Origin: Rhodopseudomonas julia
Lineage (GTDB): Bacteria; Pseudomonadota; Alphaproteobacteria; Rhizobiales; Afifellaceae
NCBI RefSeq assembly: GCF_030813515.1
Contig: NZ_JAUSUK010000002.1
Coordinates: 1,240,001-1,304,000 of the forward strand
Direction: 5' to 3'
Length of the DNA: 64,000 bases
The notes under the pieces are model-generated. The model searched no databases. It saw only the letters and a list, made by a program, of their open reading frames with translations, and was not told the origin of the DNA. Of the stretch, positions 4,641-53,415 are shown piece by piece (the stretch's first letter is position 1; the number at the start of each line of letters is the position of its first letter). The position numbers and the translations under genes were made by a program.

Positions 4641-6002
4641 CTATACCCCGAGGCTCTTCAGCTTGCGATGCAGTGCCGAGCGCTCCATGCCAACAAATTC
4701 GGCCGTGCGCGAGATATTGCCGCCGAAACGGTTGATCTGCGCCGAAAGATATTCTCGCTCGAACACCTCACGCGCTTCCCGCAAAGGCAGCGACATGATG
4801 TGGGCCGATCCATCGGCGGGGCTCGCAGGCAGGATCTCGCCAATCTCCGGAGGCAGCATGGCGGCCGTCACCATCGCTTCCGCATCTCCCTGGGTCAGGA
4901 TCATCAACCGTTCGACGTTGTTGCGCAGCTGACGGATGTTTCCCGGCCAGTCGTGCGCCTGGAGCACGGCCATCGCATCGTCGGCGATGCGTCTTGTCGG
5001 CAGGCCGGCTGTCTGGGCGATCTGCGCCATGAAATAGTCGACGAGCTCCGGGACGTCTTCGCGCCGCTCCGCCAGTGACGGAACGCGGATCGGAACGACG
5101 CTCAGGCGATGGAAAAGGTCTTCGCGAAACCGCCCCTCTTTGATCTCCGCTTCGAGATCGCGGGCGGTGGAGGAGAGGATTCGGACATCGACCTTGACCT
5201 TCTTGCTGCCCCCAACCCGCTCGAACGTCTGCTCGACGAGAACACGCAGGATCTTGTTCTGCGTCTCGCGCGGCATGTCGGCGACTTCCTCCAGATAGAG
5301 AATGCCGCCATGGGCCTCTTCGAGCGCGCCGACGCGACGATGTTCGCCCTCGATGGCTTCCGTGCCGAAGAGCGCGATTTCCATGTTCTCAGGTGTGATG
5401 GCAGCCGAGCTCAAGACGACAAACGGGCCGTTGGCGCGCCGAGAGGCGGCGTGGATGGCGCGCGCCACGCGTTCCTTTCCCGCTCCGGAAGCCCCAAAAA
5501 TCATCACGCGGCTGTTCGTGGGCGCGACACGTTCGATCGTCTGTCGCAGATGGTGCATGACGGAAGAGGAGCCGACGAGGTCGTTGGTGACACCTGAGCG
5601 CTGCTTCAGCTCGGCCACCTCCTTCTTCAACCGCGACGCTTCCAAGGCACGCTGCGCCACGAGCACGAGGCGGTCCGCCTTGAACGGCTTTTCGATATAG
5701 TCGTAGGCGCCGCGCTTGATGGCCGAGACGGCCGTCTCGATGTTGCCGTGACCGGAAATGATCACCACCGGCAATGCCGGATGCTCGGTGTGGATGGCAT
5801 CGAGAAGCGCCAGACCATCGAGCCGGCTTCCCTGCAGCCAGATGTCGAGAAAGATGAGGCCGGGCCTGCGTTCCGCGATTGCTTCAAGTGCTGCGTCGCT
5901 GTTGGCGGCGGTGCGTGTTCCGTGGCCTTCGTCTTCAAGAATGCCGGCGACGAGTTCGCGGATATCGGCTTCATCATCGACGACAAGGATGTCGGTAGCC
6001 AT
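4641..6002 (-). CDS. ntrX: Nitrogen response regulator NtrX
   Basis: NtrX is the response regulator paired with sensor NtrY. It has a receiver domain with the phosphoacceptor Asp in LIFLDIWLQG (about residue 53), a AAA+ domain with Walker A GASGAGKE, and a C-terminal Fis-type helix-turn-helix. Where sigma-54 activators carry GAFTGA, this protein reads ALFGTEAIEGEHRRVGALEE, so the sigma-54 contact loop is missing. That is known for alphaproteobacterial NtrX and argues for sigma-54-independent action. The ATG at 6002 forms a TGATG junction with the ntrY stop and has AGGAG upstream; a GTG one codon earlier is the alternative. Confidence 0.95.
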   Translation of the reverse strand: MATDILVVDDEADIRELVAGILEDEGHGTRTAANSDAALEAIAERRPGLIFLDIWLQGSRLDGLALLDAIHTEHPALPVVIISGHGNIETAVSAIKRGAYDYIEKPFKADRLVLVAQRALEASRLKKEVAELKQRSGVTNDLVGSSSVMHHLRQTIERVAPTNSRVMIFGASGAGKERVARAIHAASRRANGPFVVLSSAAITPENMEIALFGTEAIEGEHRRVGALEEAHGGILYLEEVADMPRETQNKILRVLVEQTFERVGGSKKVKVDVRILSSTARDLEAEIKEGRFREDLFHRLSVVPIRVPSLAERREDVPELVDYFMAQIAQTAGLPTRRIADDAMAVLQAHDWPGNIRQLRNNVERLMILTQGDAEAMVTAAMLPPEIGEILPASPADGSAHIMSLPLREAREVFEREYLSAQINRFGGNISRTAEFVGMERSALHRKLKSLGV

Positions 6003-45540: not shown

Positions 45541-46017
45541 TTATTGCATGTTTGCAGAGTTTTCGCGAATTTTCTCAGCCGTCTCTTTTTGATTTTGCTG
45601 AACAAGGCGCCGCAATTCCGCTTCGCGGGCAGTGAGTTCTTGCTGCTTGCGGCCATTGGCGCCACGACGCGCGGCAGCAATCTGTTCAAGCTCCGCCTTC
45701 AGCGCGGCGACGTTGCGGGTCGGTCTGACGAGCATCCTCGGCGGCACGGCCGTGTCGAACACACCCGGGAACTCCCGAGGGTTCGCATCTTCGGCGGCAG
45801 CGCGCGCACGGATATCTGCGACGGTGTGATCGAATGCCGCCGCCTTTTGAGGATCGCTCGGCCTTTTCGGCGGCGTGCTGCTCTCTTTGAGTCCCGTGAG
45901 CGCAGGGCTCTCGCAGGCAGTGAGCGCGAAGAGTGCGACGGCAGCAACGCCCAGCCCTCTCCATCCGCCGATCGGACGCAGGCGACTATGACGACAGTTT
46001 TGAGCTAGGAAACGCAA
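45541..46017 (-). CDS. Predicted lipoprotein with C-terminal coiled coil, unknown function
   Basis: A 158-residue protein with signal peptide ending in the lipobox ALTAC, so it should be lipid-anchored. The mature protein is polar; the last about 60 residues (ALKAELEQIAAARRGANGRK and on) have charged heptad-like repeats predicting a coiled coil. I do not recognise a family. The ATG lies 96 bases from divergent phaC. It is 61 bases upstream of the aminotransferase gene and may be co-transcribed with it. Confidence 0.78.
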   Translation of the reverse strand: MRFLAQNCRHSRLRPIGGWRGLGVAAVALFALTACESPALTGLKESSTPPKRPSDPQKAAAFDHTVADIRARAAAEDANPREFPGVFDTAVPPRMLVRPTRNVAALKAELEQIAAARRGANGRKQQELTAREAELRRLVQQNQKETAEKIRENSANMQ

Positions 46018-46113: not shown

Positions 46114-47964
46114 ATGGCGGAGAAAAAATCACGCAAAGAGCGGGAGGATGTCACAGAGGAACGGTCGGACAAGCCGCTGCCCACCTCTTACATCGCTGCC
46201 GATCCGGAAGTCTTTGCCCGCAATATGGCTCGCGCCTTCGAGGAGGGCGGAAAGGCGCTCGCGGCCTATCTGCGCCCCCGCGAAACGGGACAGACAGGGG
46301 CCGACCAGCTGGCCGAGCACACGGCTGAGGTGATGAAGACGATCAGCCATGTCGGGCAATATTGGATGTCGGATCCGGCTCGAACCATCGAAGCGCAGAC
46401 CAAGCTCTGGGCACAATATCTGTCGATCTGGAACAACGGCCTGCGCAAAGCCATGGGCGATGGCGCGGAGACGCAGCAAAACGCTGTTCCCGACAAGCGC
46501 TTTGCAGACCCGGACTGGTCGCAGAACCCGATGTTCGACGTCTTGAAACAACTCTACCTTGCGACCTCGCGCTGGGCCGAGGACCTTGTTTCGGATGCCG
46601 AAGACGTCGATCCGCACACACGCCAGAAAGCGCGTTTTTATGTGCAACAGATCGCCAACGCGCTGTCGCCTTCGAATTTCGCCATGACCAATCCCGAGGT
46701 GCTCCGCGCGACCGCAGAGAGCAACGGCGAGAATCTGGTGCGAGGCATGCACATGCTGGCGGAAGATATCGCCGCCGGCAAAGGCGAGCTGCGTGTGCGC
46801 CAGACCGATGCGACAGCATTCAAGATCGGCGAGAACATCGCCACGACGCCTGGGAAGGTCGTTGCCCAGAACGAGCTCTGCCAGGTGATTCAGTACGAGG
46901 CCACGACAAAGAGTGTCTTGAAGCGACCGCTCCTGATCGTGCCGCCATGGATCAACAAATTCTACATCCTCGATCTCAACAGCGAGAAGAGTTTCGTCCG
47001 CTGGGCGGTCGAACAGGGACACACGGTCTTTGTCGTCTCGTGGGTCAATCCCGATCGGCGGCACGCGGACAAGACCTTCGAACATTATATGAAGGAGGGC
47101 ATTTTCTATGCCCTCGACGTCGTCGAACGCGCTACCGGTGAGCGCAAGGTGAATGCGATCGGCTATTGCGTCGGCGGCACCCTTCTCGCAGTCGCCCTCG
47201 CCTACCTCGCAAAGGGACGCAGCAAGCAGCGAATCGCCAGTGCGACGATGTTCGCCGCCCAGGTCGACTTCACCTATTCGGGTGATCTGAAACTGTTTGC
47301 CGACGAAGAGCAAATCGAGACGCTGGAGGAAGACATGGCCGAGCGCGGCTATCTCGACGGCTCGAAGATGGCGACGGCCTTCAATCTTTTGCGATCGAAC
47401 GATCTCATCTGGCGGTATTTCGTGAGCGACTACATGCTCGGCAAAGAGCCGCTGCCTTTCGACCTTCTCTACTGGAATTCCGATTCCACGCGCCTGCCCG
47501 CAGCGAACCACTCCTTCTACCTGCGCAACTGCTATCTTGAGAACAACCTGTCTCAGGGGCGCATGAAGATCGGTGATAAGATGCTCGATCTCAGCCGGGT
47601 GACGATCCCCATCTACAATCTCGCCACCAAAGAGGACCACATCGCGCCGGCACGCTCGGTGTTTTTTGGCAGCCAGTTTTTCGGCGGACCCGTGCGCTTC
47701 GTCCTCACCGGCTCTGGTCATATCGCGGGCGTCATCAACCCGCCGGCGAAGAACAAATATCAATACTGGATCGATGGCGATGCCAATGGCGACATCGAAT
47801 CCTGGATGGAGAAGGCCGAGGAGAAGCCTGGTTCCTGGTGGCCGGATTGGCAGCGCTGGATCGAGACGCTGGACGACAAACGTGTCGACGCCCGCGAGAT
47901 CGGCGGGGGCAAGCTCCAGGCGCTCGAGGACGCTCCGGGCTCCTACGTCAAAATGAAGTGCTGA
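46114..47964 (+). CDS. phaC: Class I poly(3-hydroxyalkanoate) synthase PhaC
   Basis: Polymerises (R)-3-hydroxyacyl-CoA into storage polyester at granule surfaces. At 616 residues it fits class I. The alpha/beta-hydrolase core has the lipase-like box GYCVGGTLLA with nucleophile Cys352, Asp508 in TKEDHIAPA and His536 in GSGHIAGVINPP, the full catalytic triad. LIVPPWINKFYILDLNSEKS is another conserved block. The beta-ketothiolase and reductase genes (phaA, phaB) are not in this window. It is divergent from the lipoprotein gene. Confidence 0.97.
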   Translation: MAEKKSRKEREDVTEERSDKPLPTSYIAADPEVFARNMARAFEEGGKALAAYLRPRETGQTGADQLAEHTAEVMKTISHVGQYWMSDPARTIEAQTKLWAQYLSIWNNGLRKAMGDGAETQQNAVPDKRFADPDWSQNPMFDVLKQLYLATSRWAEDLVSDAEDVDPHTRQKARFYVQQIANALSPSNFAMTNPEVLRATAESNGENLVRGMHMLAEDIAAGKGELRVRQTDATAFKIGENIATTPGKVVAQNELCQVIQYEATTKSVLKRPLLIVPPWINKFYILDLNSEKSFVRWAVEQGHTVFVVSWVNPDRRHADKTFEHYMKEGIFYALDVVERATGERKVNAIGYCVGGTLLAVALAYLAKGRSKQRIASATMFAAQVDFTYSGDLKLFADEEQIETLEEDMAERGYLDGSKMATAFNLLRSNDLIWRYFVSDYMLGKEPLPFDLLYWNSDSTRLPAANHSFYLRNCYLENNLSQGRMKIGDKMLDLSRVTIPIYNLATKEDHIAPARSVFFGSQFFGGPVRFVLTGSGHIAGVINPPAKNKYQYWIDGDANGDIESWMEKAEEKPGSWWPDWQRWIETLDDKRVDAREIGGGKLQALEDAPGSYVKMKC

Positions 47965-48067: not shown

Positions 48068-49201
48068 ATGCGCGTTCAAACTCCCCTGGTCATCCCGGCG
48101 CTCGCTGCCGGTTTTCTAAGCCTCACCGGCACGGCTTTCGCTCAGGATGCAGAGGCGGTCGCCCGCTCGCTCGAAGCGACCTTGTCACAGGGCGGCAAGA
48201 TGACGGTCTCCCATGAGGGCGAGGTATCGGGCGGTGGCGATGAGGTCGCCATCAACGGCCTCACCCTGACGCCGAAGGACGGCGGCACCGTGATTGCATT
48301 CGATGAGGTGACCCTCACCGGCGTGGCCCAAGAAGACGACGGGTACACGGCCGACGAAATCGTCTTCGACGGCGGCTCTCTCTCCGGCGATGCGACCGGC
48401 ACGATCGGCAATGTGAGGCTAGAAGAAGCAACTTTCGGTGAGAAAGCGGAAGCTGAGCAGGAAACGCCGGGTCTGCTGTTCCATCGCCTCGTCGGCAGCG
48501 ACGTCAGCATTACGCCGGAAGACCGCAGCGAGCCCGTCACGGTGTCAGGCTTCACCATGACGAGCGAGGATATCGTCGACGGCGTGCCGCAGACGAGCCA
48601 GGGCAGCGTCGAGGATCTTATTGTCCCCGGTAGCTATGTTCCGGCCGACCAGAAGATGAAGCCTTCCGATCTCGGCTACGACGAGCTCGCTTTCGACATC
48701 GAATGGGCCGGCTCACGTGATCCTGAAAGCCAGGATTTGAAGCTCGACAAGATGTCACTCACCCTTAAGGACGGTGGCACCTTGATGATCGATGGCAATC
48801 TCGGCAACGTCGCCATGCCTGGGGCGGATGCGGCGGCCCAGCCGATGGCGGGCATTGCCACGATGAATGTGTCTGACTTCACGCTGCGCTACGAAGACGA
48901 TTCGCTGACGGGGCGCATTCTCGACTATTTCGGCAAGCAGCAGGGCATGGACGGCGACAAATATGCTGAGCAGCTGGCTGCCGCGCTCCCCTTCATGCTG
49001 AGCGCCATGCAGAATGCCGATTTCCAGAAAGAGGTCTCTGATGCTGTCAGCACCTTCCTGCGTGATCCGCAGTCGCTGACGGTCGCGATCGCCCCGGATA
49101 AGCCCATGTCCGGTGCCGAGATCCTGCAGATTGCAGGCTCCGCCCCACAGACCCTTCCGGATGTCTTGAACGTCTCGGTCACCGCCAACCAAAACCGCTA
49201 A
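48068..49201 (+). CDS. Exported beta-rich protein of unknown function, paralog of the next gene
   Basis: A 377-residue protein with a clear signal peptide (LVIPALAAGFLSLTGTAFA, cleaved before QDAEA). The mature part is acidic, rich in short alternating hydrophobic strands. Residues about 183-377 resemble residues about 470-681 of the downstream protein: DLIVPGSYV ... DLGYDELAFDI here, DLFVPGTLL ... ELGYDGLHINL there, and the shared end block around DKYAEQLAAALPFML and SLTVAIAPDKPMSGAEI. No known domain recognised. AAGGA lies 6 bases before the ATG at 48068. Distance to phaC is 103 bases, so co-transcription is possible but unproven. Confidence 0.8.
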   Translation: MRVQTPLVIPALAAGFLSLTGTAFAQDAEAVARSLEATLSQGGKMTVSHEGEVSGGGDEVAINGLTLTPKDGGTVIAFDEVTLTGVAQEDDGYTADEIVFDGGSLSGDATGTIGNVRLEEATFGEKAEAEQETPGLLFHRLVGSDVSITPEDRSEPVTVSGFTMTSEDIVDGVPQTSQGSVEDLIVPGSYVPADQKMKPSDLGYDELAFDIEWAGSRDPESQDLKLDKMSLTLKDGGTLMIDGNLGNVAMPGADAAAQPMAGIATMNVSDFTLRYEDDSLTGRILDYFGKQQGMDGDKYAEQLAAALPFMLSAMQNADFQKEVSDAVSTFLRDPQSLTVAIAPDKPMSGAEILQIAGSAPQTLPDVLNVSVTANQNR

Positions 49202-49233
49202 CTCCAGACCCGTCAGAGCCGAGAGACAGTTCT

Positions 49234-51279
49234 ATGCGTTGTTCATTTTCTGTTCGCGCGCCGCTTCTTTTGGCTTTGGCGGTGCTGCCGCCGAGCGGGG
49301 CCGTGGCAGATCCGGTTGGCGAGCAGGTGTTCCGTGACCTCGTGAGCGAGCTCGACGGCGTTCCAGGCTGGAGTGCCAGCGTCGGCAAGATCACGAGCGA
49401 TGACGACGTGGTCGTGGGAACGGATGTGCATTTCGTTCGCACCGAGCCGCCGCTCGACGTCACTTTCGATGAGCTGCGGCTGGACCAGCCCCGCGAGAAT
49501 GCAGGAGGGCTGTCGGCCGATAGCATCCAGGGGTCGGGCCTGAGTGTTGTCGGTGAAGATGTGTCTGTCGATGCACCGGTCCTTTCCGTCACCGGAATTG
49601 ACGTGCCGAGCCTCGCGGATCTGAGTTTTGACCAGGACCGCCCCTTCTCTTCGCTGCGAACGCTGTATCAGCATCTTTCGGAAGTGTCGGTTGAACACGC
49701 CGAGATTCCGAAGCTGCATCAGGTTGTCCTGCCGCGCCTGACGACATCGCGTAAGCAGAGCGTTACCTATGAGGGGCTTGAGCTTCGCGACTGGAAGGAC
49801 GGCGTTATCGCCCATTCGGCGGCAGGTCCGATCACGATGCGCACGGAGGGGGACAATCCGTCCACTGCCCGCGTCGCCTCGGTGCGCGTCGAGGAGACAA
49901 ATTTTAACAGCGTGCTGCGTCTGCTTTCCGATGATGTCACCGGATCAGCCAGCGACGGGTCTGACGAATGGCAGAATGCCTTTGCTGAGATCTCCTATGC
50001 CGGCTTCAGCATCACGACCGAGAAAGGCGTTCGGGTCTCCATTGATGATATGAACCTGGCGGGCATTGAGACCCGGCGTCCGGACCAGCCCTATATCGAG
50101 ACCCTCGAGCAGGCGATGCGAGAGGCGGATCGTGGGACCGACGGCGACACCGACGACCGGCAGGTCATGGAAGCCCTCACGACCTTCTTTGATGCGATGC
50201 GGCTCGGCGAATTCAAGATGCACCGCCTGGTCGCAGAAAAGACCGGAGAAGAGGCGGGGCGCACAGAAATTGCCGAGATCGGTGTGTCGAACCTCACAAG
50301 AGATGGTTTCGAACGAGCCTGGGGAACGGGTCTTCTGTCGGATTTTCCCGGTGCCTACATCAAACTCGACCGCTTTGCGCTCGCAGATCTCGTCTTTCCG
50401 CTGCCAAGCTCGGAGAGTCTTGCCGCCCTGGAAGGGGCCGAGACTGGTTCCCTGACGGAGGAAGAGAGACGGGCTTTTGCCACTCTTCCCTTCCAGATGG
50501 CACCGCAGATCGGCAGCCTCGACATGGAGGGGCTAGTCGTCGGCCAGAGCCGGCTTATGGCTGTCTCTGTCGATCGTATACAAACGAAGAGCGTTCCTTC
50601 GGATCGTCTTCTGCCTGAGCGGGGGGAGTTCAAAATTTCCGATCTTTTCGTGCCGGGCACCCTTTTGCGGCGAGACCCAAAGTCGGCCGTTCTCTTCGAC
50701 GAGCTTGGATATGACGGGCTTCACATCAACCTCGACGGTGCGAGCCAGCTTAGCGAGGATGGAAGCCTTGAGACGACCACAGCCTCAGAGATCGCGGACG
50801 CAGCGGGATTGCAGATCGGGGCGAAGCTTACCGGCATCACCGAGGAGTGGGTCGTCGATCTGATGATGCAGCAGTTCGAGAATGACGATGACCCCGCGCC
50901 GCTTTTCGCGCTTCTGTCGAAATTGCGCCTGGAGCAAATGACCGTCGCGCTCACCGACCACTCCCTGATCGATCGGTCGTTCGCCTTTGCCGCGGAGAAG
51001 CAGGGCCAGCCAGCCGACCAGTACAAAGAGCAAATTGTTGGAGCACTGCCATTCCTGATCGGCACCGCAGCTCCGCCGAAGGTCGCTCAGTTCTTGGCGG
51101 GCCCTCTCAAAGACTTCCTGGAAAATGGGAACACGCTCGTCCTGACGCTGGCACCGCGAGCACCTCTGCCCTTGTCGGCTCTGGTGGACGTAGAAGACGA
51201 TCCAGAAGCCCTACTCAAATTGCTCGGCGCGTCATTGGAGACAAGCGAGACGGCGCCGGAACGCCCACTCATCAAATAG
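49234..51279 (+). CDS. Exported protein of unknown function, longer paralog of the upstream gene
   Basis: A 681-residue protein with signal peptide (RAPLLLALAVLPPSGAVA, before DPVGE). It begins 32 bases after the stop of the 377-residue paralog, so the two form an operon. Repeated beta-rich blocks are followed by the C-terminal module shared with the neighbour (about 470-681), including QYKEQIVGALPFLIGTA and TLVLTLAPRAPLPLSAL. Both proteins are acidic and lack lipobox or C-terminal membrane anchors, so periplasmic location is inferred. I do not recognise a family; the layout recalls E. coli YdgA-like DUF945 proteins only loosely. Confidence 0.8.
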   Translation: MRCSFSVRAPLLLALAVLPPSGAVADPVGEQVFRDLVSELDGVPGWSASVGKITSDDDVVVGTDVHFVRTEPPLDVTFDELRLDQPRENAGGLSADSIQGSGLSVVGEDVSVDAPVLSVTGIDVPSLADLSFDQDRPFSSLRTLYQHLSEVSVEHAEIPKLHQVVLPRLTTSRKQSVTYEGLELRDWKDGVIAHSAAGPITMRTEGDNPSTARVASVRVEETNFNSVLRLLSDDVTGSASDGSDEWQNAFAEISYAGFSITTEKGVRVSIDDMNLAGIETRRPDQPYIETLEQAMREADRGTDGDTDDRQVMEALTTFFDAMRLGEFKMHRLVAEKTGEEAGRTEIAEIGVSNLTRDGFERAWGTGLLSDFPGAYIKLDRFALADLVFPLPSSESLAALEGAETGSLTEEERRAFATLPFQMAPQIGSLDMEGLVVGQSRLMAVSVDRIQTKSVPSDRLLPERGEFKISDLFVPGTLLRRDPKSAVLFDELGYDGLHINLDGASQLSEDGSLETTTASEIADAAGLQIGAKLTGITEEWVVDLMMQQFENDDDPAPLFALLSKLRLEQMTVALTDHSLIDRSFAFAAEKQGQPADQYKEQIVGALPFLIGTAAPPKVAQFLAGPLKDFLENGNTLVLTLAPRAPLPLSALVDVEDDPEALLKLLGASLETSETAPERPLIK

Positions 51280-51394: not shown

Positions 51395-53179
51395 TCAGTC
51401 CTGCGGCGCAGTTACGCGAATGGAGAGCTCGCGGAGCTGCTTCGGTGTGACGGAGGACGGAGCACCCATCAAGAGATCGAGCGCCTGCTGGTTCATCGGG
51501 AACATCGTCACTTCGCGCAGGTTCTTCGCGCCGACGAGAAGCATCACGATGCGGTCGATGCCTGCCGCCATGCCGCCATGCGGAGGTGCGCCGTACTGGA
51601 GCGCCCGCAGCATGCCGCCGAACTTCTCCTCCAGCACCTCTTCAGGATAACCGGCGATCGCGAAGGCCTTCTTCATGATCTCCGCCTTGTGGTTGCGGAT
51701 CGCGCCAGAGGCGATCTCGTAGCCATTGCAGACGCAGTCATACTGATAGGCCGGGATCGTCAGCGGGTCTTTGGTCTCGAGGGCTTCGAGACCGCCTTGC
51801 GGCATGGAGAACGGGTTGTGCGAGAAGTCGACCTTCTTCTCCTCGTCGTCCCATTCGTACATCGGGAAATCGACGATCCAAGCGAGAGCAAAACGGTTCT
51901 CGTCGATGAGATTGAGCTCACGTCCCGCCCGGTCACGCGCCTTGCCCGCGAAATCCGCGAAGATTTTGGGATTGCCGGCAACGAAGAAGACGGCGTCGCC
52001 CTCTTTGAGGCCGAGCTGGCTGCGGATCGCTTCGGTACGCTCTTCACCGATATTCTTGGCGACCGGGCCGGCACCCGTCAGCTTGTCCGCCTCGTTGCGG
52101 AAGAAGATGTAGCCGAGGCCGGGCTGACCCTCGCCCTGCGCCCAGGAATTCATCCGGTCGCAGAAGGCCCGCGAGCCGCCGCCAGGTGCCGGAATCGCCC
52201 AGACTTCAACCTTCGGGTCACGCTCGATCATGCCGGCGAAAACCTTGAAGCCGGAGCCTGCGAAATGCTCCGTCACCGCCTGCATCTCGATCGGGTTTCT
52301 GAGGTCCGGCTTGTCGGTCCCGTATTTGCGGATGGCATCGGCATAAGGGATCCGCGGAAAGACCTGGGTCACCTCGCGACCGTCAGCGAAGCTCTCGAAG
52401 ATGCCCCGCATCACTGGCTCCATCGCCGCGAAGACATCGTCCTGCGTGACGAAGCTCATCTCGATGTCGAGCTGATAGAACTCGCCCGGTAGACGGTCGG
52501 CGCGCGGATCCTCGTCGCGAAAGCAGGGAGCGATCTGGAAGTAGCGGTCAAAGCCCGCGACCATGATCAGCTGTTTGAACTGCTGCGGCGCCTGGGGCAA
52601 CGCGTAGAACTTGCCCGGATGGATGCGCGACGGCACCAGGAAGTCGCGCGCCCCTTCGGGCGACGAGGCGGTGAGGATCGGCGTCTGGAACTCGTTGAAG
52701 GCTACCCCGCCCATTAGCTCCCGCAGACGCGAGATGACGGCCGAGCGCTTCATGATGTTCTTGTGCAGGGTCTCGCGACGCAGATCGAGAAAACGATAGC
52801 GCAGGCGCGTATCCTCTGGATATTCCGGCTCGCCGAAGACCGGCATCGGCAGCTCCGGCGCTTCGGAGAGGATCTCGATCTCGTTGGCAAAGACCTCGAT
52901 CTCGCCCGTCGGCAGATTTGGATTGACGACTTCCGGGGCGCGCGCCTTCACTTGGCCGTCGATGCGCACGCACCATTCGGCACGCAGTTTTTCAGCGCTC
53001 GTGAAGGCGGGCGAATCGGGATCGGCAACGATCTGCGTCAGACCATAATGATCACGCAGATCCATAAAGAGCAGGCCGCCGTGGTCGCGCACGCGGTGGA
53101 CCCAGCCGGAGAGACGAACATTTTCACCGACATCGCTGGCGCGAAGCGCGCCGCAATGGTGGGAACGATAGCGATGCAT
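51395..53179 (-). CDS. aspS: Aspartyl-tRNA synthetase
   Basis: A class II aminoacyl-tRNA synthetase charging tRNA-Asp. The 594 residues contain the N-terminal anticodon-binding OB domain ([26 protein letters not shown]), motif 1, motif 2 ([39 protein letters not shown]), the bacterial insertion (GAD) domain, and motif 3 ([17 protein letters not shown]). The ATG at 53179 puts [10 protein letters not shown] at the N-terminus, as in other alphaproteobacteria; the frame is open to 53251. It may be non-discriminating (Asp/Asn), as in many alphaproteobacteria, but that cannot be read here. Confidence 0.97.
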
Positions 53180-53415
53180 GTTACCGCTTCTTTCGGGTTT
53201 TGAGACAGTGGTCCGAAACGGACAAATTCGGCCGGAGAAGCACAGAAGCACGGGCGTGTGTCAAGGGAGCGGGCGCTTCAGATTGGCTAGACCGCAGCTG
53301 CGATACGCCCCGCTGGATGGTGGGCTGGAACTGTCCCGCGAACTGCCAAAATCTGCCCAGGTGCGCCACGAAAGCGTGGCGACAGCTGCGTCGAGATTCG
53401 CTATAGAGCAGCGCA

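Follow-up and report, generated by a model that had tools for sequence, protein, structure and literature searches.

Tandem genes for a short and a lengthened exported protein, predicted to be beta-troughs, in Rhodopseudomonas julia and their relatives in Hyphomicrobiales

Introduction

In diderm bacteria the way in which phospholipids are delivered to the outer membrane is still an open question; work on it has been mostly in E. coli and Pseudomonas, by way of the AsmA-like proteins (AsmA, TamB, YhdP). These are described as tube-like with a lateral opening, and as carrying an N-terminal transmembrane helix (PMC10900882). The subject here is a tandem pair of genes, termed A and B, found in a 64,000-nucleotide stretch of the Rhodopseudomonas julia genome (contig NZ_JAUSUK010000002.1, positions 1,240,001 to 1,304,000), referred to below as the window. 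Their products are predicted to be elongated beta-rich troughs, in concept like the AsmA-like proteins. However, the AsmA-like proteins are N-terminally anchored, whereas A and B look cleaved, by motif only.

Other described proteins are also close. LptA and LptC give partial fold matches to A (fragments, Z about 6) and LptD gives long Foldseek matches to B, but no sequence relation to these Lpt bridge proteins was found and A and B, unlike them, end in a helical part. LptD and apolipoprotein B100 bind lipid on beta sheets. JlpA (PDB 3uau), a Campylobacter surface lipoprotein reportedly shaped as a half-barrel, is Foldseek's best solved match of A; the two share about 10% identity, template modelling scores (TM-scores) of JlpA to A and B are under 0.45, and no sequence relation was found. 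JlpA is a lipoprotein while A and B show no lipobox. Lastly DUF945 (PF06097), which we take to include E. coli YdgA, displays a weak colinear similarity to the A family and no match to the B family.

Homology and layout of A and B

A first, sequence-only reading of this DNA proposed two open reading frames 32 bases apart, and both frames are present, on the plus strand. The genes and their parts are:

48068..49201, plus strand: gene A, a 377 amino acid (aa) exported protein, predicted beta-trough (open reading frame; model with predicted local distance difference test score, pLDDT, 90.9 and predicted TM-score, pTM, 0.85)
49234..51279, plus strand: gene B, a 681 aa protein, apparently exported, lengthened paralogue of A (open reading frame; model pLDDT 91.3, pTM 0.85)
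48101..48442, plus strand: N-terminal unit of A common to B (B-family profile, E 2.2e-11 and 3.8e-15)
48500..49192, plus strand: C-terminal module of A common to B (B-family profile, E 1.2e-57; JlpA alignment at model residues 92-373)
49252..49656, plus strand: N-terminal unit of B common to A (A-family profile, E 4.1e-14 and 2.1e-17)
49645..50496, plus strand: predicted beta-meander insertion of B, about 285 residues, not in A (gap between the main A-profile matches; long strands in the model)
50497..51237, plus strand: C-terminal module of B common to A (A-family profile, E 1.1e-35 and 5e-39; JlpA alignment at model residues 356-670)

Deep profiles were built from 61 A-family sequences (alignment A3) and 56 B-family sequences (alignment A4). 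Three stretches containing N (two for A, one for B) and matches covering less than 85% of the model were dropped beforehand. Earlier alignments (A1 and A2) included rows of locus L068, one of them with unknown residues.

A and B are homologous. In BLASTP the two align over 218 residues at 22% identity (E 5e-13), and the match is also found in the genome-wide search (25% identity, E 4.1e-10). The profile-profile comparison has a probability of 100 and E 3.1e-55 over 317 columns, with a score of 434.6 as opposed to 46.4 for the reversed control; columns 60-385 of A are paired with columns 331-664 of B. The shared C-terminal module proposed from sequence is thus real, but the boundaries given to it were too narrow, and an N-terminal unit is shared as well. 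Positions 5-133 of the A-family profile match B at 7-137 (E 2.1e-17), positions 133-373 match B at 422-668 (E 5e-39), and a marginal third match (0.011) lies between these two. The B-family profile on A gives the mirror image. To judge from these colinear matches at both of its ends, B is A plus about 285 beta-meander residues, situated between the shared N-terminal unit and the C-terminal module.

The added segment had been described as several beta-rich repeats. The insertion itself is seen in profile matches and model; that B grew by duplication is possible but not proven. An hhalign self-comparison gave no internal repeats. The insertion compared with the next part of B gives a probability of 92 (reversed, 35), and the N-terminal unit of B compared with the part after the insertion a probability of 88 (reversed, 60). 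Since the early strands of A pair with the end of the B insertion, and the insertion resembles the part of B that follows it, these alignments suggest growth of B by duplication of beta-meander units. No third copy of A or B was found in the genome (3.79 Mb, 5 contigs), where the three matches of the B-family profile all fall in A and B.

Export signals

Two further segments are read by eye:

48068..48142, plus strand: signal-peptide-like segment of A, residues 1-25, ending TAFA before QDAE
49234..49308, plus strand: signal-peptide-like segment of B, residues 1-25, ending GAVA before DPVG

To the eye, both N-termini run from a few basic residues through a hydrophobic core to a cut site of the AxA type, in agreement with the signal peptides assigned earlier. 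With simple patterns, an AxA-like motif is found in 60 of 61 A-family rows and 47 of 56 B-family rows. A lipobox-like motif, searched in the same way, is found in none of the 61 A-family rows, in one of the 56 B-family rows, and in neither A nor B of the window. A and B are therefore probably exported proteins, soluble in the periplasm and anchor-free.

Predicted structures and fold matches

Confident AlphaFold2 models of A and B were obtained from the deep alignments. Both models begin with an N-terminal helix followed by long beta strands, 16 strands being listed in A and 27 in B. When element lists are compared, A from residue 176 and B from residue 463 have the same order: strand, helix, three strands, helix, strand, three helices, strand, two helices, strand. 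The only difference is that B has two helices for A's one at two places. Unrelated folds in the two C-terminal halves would have spoken against a shared module; in the models their strands and helices instead follow one another in almost the same sequence.

A Foldseek search with A gives two matches at E<=0.001, both to JlpA chains (best E 5.6e-4, probability 0.99). With VIA, A aligns to JlpA with Z 10.4 and a root-mean-square deviation (rmsd) of 5.8 over 239 residues. B gives nine Foldseek matches at E<=0.001, six to LptD, two to apolipoprotein B100 and one to JlpA; with VIA, JlpA aligns to the shared module of B, residues 356-670, with Z 8.6 and rmsd 6.0 over 248 residues. The useful part of this predicted-fold evidence is that JlpA aligns to the same module in both models. 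LolA, LolB and solved AsmA-like proteins are not in the fold lists shown, which by the tool's own note excludes nothing.

The lag-2 autocorrelation of hydrophobicity along the strands is 0.235 for A and 0.183 for B, with shuffle means of -0.085 and -0.077. None of 5000 shuffles is as high, and the strands overall alternate hydrophobic and polar residues.

Kinship with AsmA was considered and rejected. Pfam lists no AsmA match for A or B. Against 30 AsmA N-termini, hhalign gives the N-terminal units of A and B probabilities of 1.7 (reversed, 6.1) and 10.4 (reversed, 12.3), no better than reversed; the B insertion, 4.8 (0.5), and the A C-terminal module, 2.3 (0.2), are above their controls, yet with probabilities under 5. 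A comparison of 14 relatives from outside the order with AsmA gave a probability of 50 over 72 columns, but the alignment includes the membrane anchor and was not used. The genome carries four AsmA matches, one of which is listed on contig C1.

Proposed function

A tentative reading, to which we give slightly less than an even chance, is that A and B are anchor-free periplasmic beta-troughs which bind or pass hydrophobic molecules. The earlier suggestion of beta-rich proteins that might handle lipids is compatible with the predicted fold. Both would be soluble, open beta-sheet troughs capped by the C-terminal helical part, A being the short form and B the same protein lengthened by extra beta-meander units. 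The concave face would be hydrophobic and would hold a lipid by its acyl chains, or some other hydrophobic molecule. A would work as a carrier or receiver, and B, the longer trough, would cover part of the way between the membranes. The hydrophobic inner face and its ligand, a direction of transfer, contact between A and B and a division of labor between short and long forms are what we infer from the models.

Several results weigh against this reading, and it is held below even because the JlpA match is tied with porins and the TM-scores are low. Foldseek TM-scores of A to JlpA are 0.32-0.38. Those of the B query for its nine matches run from 0.09 to 0.23, with B to JlpA at 0.23/0.41, and scores to LptD are about 0.1. 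In the VIA lists for A, VIA's rule puts JlpA level with apolipoprotein B100 (Z 10.3) and porins (Z 9.5-9.7), and for B porins lead, with Z up to 11.0. The porin matches show that much of the fold score can be had from an open beta meander by itself, so that a common beta meander may account for much of it here. When PDB sequences were searched with the two profiles (hmmsearch, E<=10), no solved structure was related at a useful E-value, and solved LptA, LptC and LptD were not listed.

The strand patterns are also ambiguous. An odd/even alternation test gives 1.14 for A (1.13 shuffled) and 1.19 for B (1.03 shuffled, standard deviation 0.17), with only 2 of 11 single strands significant in A and 2 of 20 in B. 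Phase shifts in the long strands may explain why this test and the autocorrelation disagree. Alternation is found in beta sandwiches and porins too, being common to sheets with one apolar face. Finally, a rough strand count would give B a reach of about half the periplasm, too short for a bridge on its own.

The outer-membrane proteins among these matches bear on a different, unlikely explanation, that A and B are chaperones or assembly scaffolds whose troughs receive outer-membrane proteins or lipoproteins, unfolded or partly folded, and not free lipids. Chains of porins, BamA, TamA and SAM appear in the fold lists, and strands could add on to an open amphipathic beta edge. However, these matches are generic beta meanders with large rmsd, and no outer-membrane assembly partner was seen among neighboring genes, which were compared with seven window genes only, none such being sought.

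JlpA in turn is listed as a cell-adhesion protein (PMC7857515) and not as a lipid carrier. This is a further point against lipid-binding troughs, and it lends something to the view that A and B are structural or surface-exposed components, spacers or adhesin-like, without a small ligand. Fast divergence agrees with that view, as identity outside the genus is 17-37% to A and 15-28% to B. But the absence of a lipobox-like motif from all 61 A-family rows leaves no evident outer-membrane anchor, and A and B are kept in many families of the order. We consider this explanation improbable as well.

If A and B are lipid-binding troughs, a fuller claim can be made, which is possible but doubtful: that they typify an unnamed periplasmic system of Hyphomicrobiales, made up of anchor-free beta-troughs of two lengths and probably related to DUF945. 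In it B, grown from A by beta-meander insertion, would carry lipids over part of the distance between the membranes, alongside the routes of the AsmA-like and Lpt proteins. A soluble trough family in Hyphomicrobiales would then be a new candidate for a phospholipid route to the outer membrane.

Family assignment

The sequence-only reading recognized no family, and this holds for curated models, as neither A nor B has a match over any curated cut-off in Pfam or NCBIfam, and PHROGs and PADLOC give nothing for either at E<=1. Below the cut-offs the window pair matches DUF937 (0.014), TetR_N (0.21) and PRK10642 (0.24). Among the 61 A-family members, Pfam matches at E<=0.05 are DUF945 in two (best 9.1e-6), DUF937 in two and BigA_N in two, with eleven further families matched by one member each. 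The 56 B-family members match five families at the same threshold, one each, the best being JHBP at 6.1e-4. This is a lone match, in one of 56 members, among 24736 models. JHBP, the juvenile-hormone-binding family, is placed with lipid-binding proteins of the TULIP kind (PMC6791001).

A viral or defense origin was rejected, one scan of viral contigs having shown no relative of A's peptides and PHROGs and PADLOC being empty at the threshold given. No publication on the A/B family was found in the open-licence literature, the family having no name that could serve as a search term. The window pair is the local copy of an unnamed family that is widespread in Hyphomicrobiales.

Relation to DUF945 and DUF2125

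DUF945 is not listed by Pfam for A or B themselves at E<=10. A DUF945 profile was built from 30 DUF945 proteins and used with hmmsearch at Z=1000. It matches 7 of 61 A-family members at E<=1e-3 (best 1.4e-7), where the controls, 61 reversed sequences, 61 locally shuffled ones and 820 other open reading frames, give no match at all. At E<=0.1 there are 17 of 61 A-family members, compared with 2 of 61 reversed, and 0 of 56 B-family members. In the reciprocal search at E<=0.1, the A profile picks out 7 of the 30 DUF945 sequences, the best at 1.1e-4, compared with 3 of 30 reversed (best 0.033). The main DUF945 matches of many A-family members are in similar register, profile position minus residue being 36 to 58, and several secondary matches are out of register. 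The profile-profile match to A covers only 39 columns, with scores of 42.5 and 49.7, and is unconvincing because these are near the 46.4 of reversed A versus B. The case for DUF945 therefore rests on the hmmsearch controls, and a distant common origin of A and DUF945 is likely, although not proven, on these profile matches. If true, DUF945, also of unknown function, would gain a relative that has a partner gene and a confidently predicted fold.

By eye, DUF945 rows start with a hydrophobic anchor-like segment, while A and B carry AxA cut-site-like motifs. DUF945 is found in 51 of 249 genomes drawn from the phylum, 49 of them of other classes, with no match in the genome studied here. Two relatives outside the order (G331 and G479, loci L257 and L258) have a hydrophobic, anchor-like, DUF945-resembling start and an A/B module at the end.

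DUF2125 (PF09898) is not listed by Pfam for A or B. In a different order of the class, three longer relatives (L274, L275 and L276) have N-terminal matches to the A profile (E 1.8e-8, 4.7e-7 and 1.4e-6) and match DUF2125 in a later part. A second open reading frame in L275 matches the A profile weakly (2.7e-4). DUF2125 proper was rejected as a relative; it displays no profile-profile relation to A or B, and 1 of 30 DUF2125 proteins matched the A profile (0.0049). The single DUF2125 gene of the genome studied here (contig C1, 1716206-1717102) is on another contig than the pair.

Distribution

Relatives are found in 178 of 297 genomes of the order Hyphomicrobiales with the A profile (A1), in 66 of 122 genera, and in 177 of 297 with the B profile (A2), in 67 of 122 genera; the two counts are not independent, as the profiles share modules and cross-match. 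In some genomes the profiles match at 4 to 6 places; these may be pieces of one gene. Beyond the order relatives thin out. Of 249 genomes drawn from the phylum 46 match; 29 of these belong to the order, 11 to different orders within the class and 6 to different classes. A draw from the class gives 45 of 289. Relatives named in one scan are from Afifella sp. IM 167, Afifella pfennigii, Faunimonas pinastri, Propylenella binzhouense and two Afifellaceae assemblies.

Judged by match coordinates, A and B lie next to each other in 9 of the 11 genomes of their own family, Afifellaceae. The exceptions are G005, without a full B, and G009, where B is on another contig. In other families only 3 of 10 loci, fetched regardless of pairing, show the tandem. 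Homologs scattered as single genes would have counted against a system of two proteins; on this point the outcome is mixed, the pairing being kept in most genomes of the family but in a minority of these loci outside it. Of 80 fetched loci 35 show a tandem, 31 in A-B order and 4 in B-A order, which is not a frequency, since 20 loci were chosen mostly as pairs and others were hand-picked. Wide stretches were left out for the loci of G002, G032 and G034 and for the second A locus of G033.

Two loci of family f40 (L179 and L180, from G088 and G151) carry two A genes followed by B, beside aspS, with 4 to 6 matched places. In L163 (G102) an in-frame stop splits the B homolog into two reading frames, and this gene may be decaying.

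Neighboring genes

Two genes flank the pair in the window:

46114..47964, plus strand: phaC, class I polyhydroxyalkanoate (PHA) synthase (TIGR01838, E 4.3e-231; synteny; adjoins A in own family only)
51395..53251, minus strand: aspS, convergent neighbor in several families of the order (NF001750, E 5.1e-251 for 51395-53182; 49/80 loci)

The aspS gene is near A/B in 49 of the 80 loci, on the opposite strand in all 49, and lies downstream in the locus maps. In the window, rnd is found beyond aspS on the downstream side of A-B (NCBIfam scan). phaC adjoins A in all 9 fetched A loci of the family and in the window, whereas none of the remaining 71 loci has it near A/B, by tblastn at E 1e-15 over the stretch fetched. 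The expectation that the pair is kept together with phaC thus applies to the family and not beyond it; aspS is the neighbor common across families and phaC a local one. That A and B act in PHA metabolism with phaC is very improbable: phaC is upstream on the same strand at a distance of 103 bases and beside A throughout the family loci, but A/B look exported while PHA synthase is cytoplasmic, and a general link to PHA was rejected because phaC adjoins A/B in their own family only.

Between 45950 and 51500 no sigma-70-like promoter was found (shuffles, 1.2), and terminator-like sites are at chance level (4 compared with 4.2). A small open reading frame at 45541-46017 on the minus strand, divergent from phaC, carries a lipobox-like LTAC motif and has no NCBIfam family. 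It is fast-evolving, with 86% identity to one congener and 35-36% to two others.

The aspS product of two loci of the same genus (L063 of G003, at about 5600-5900, and L064 of G004) displays an in-frame segment of about 90 residues after YIFWRE, where the aspS product of the window has about 8 residues.

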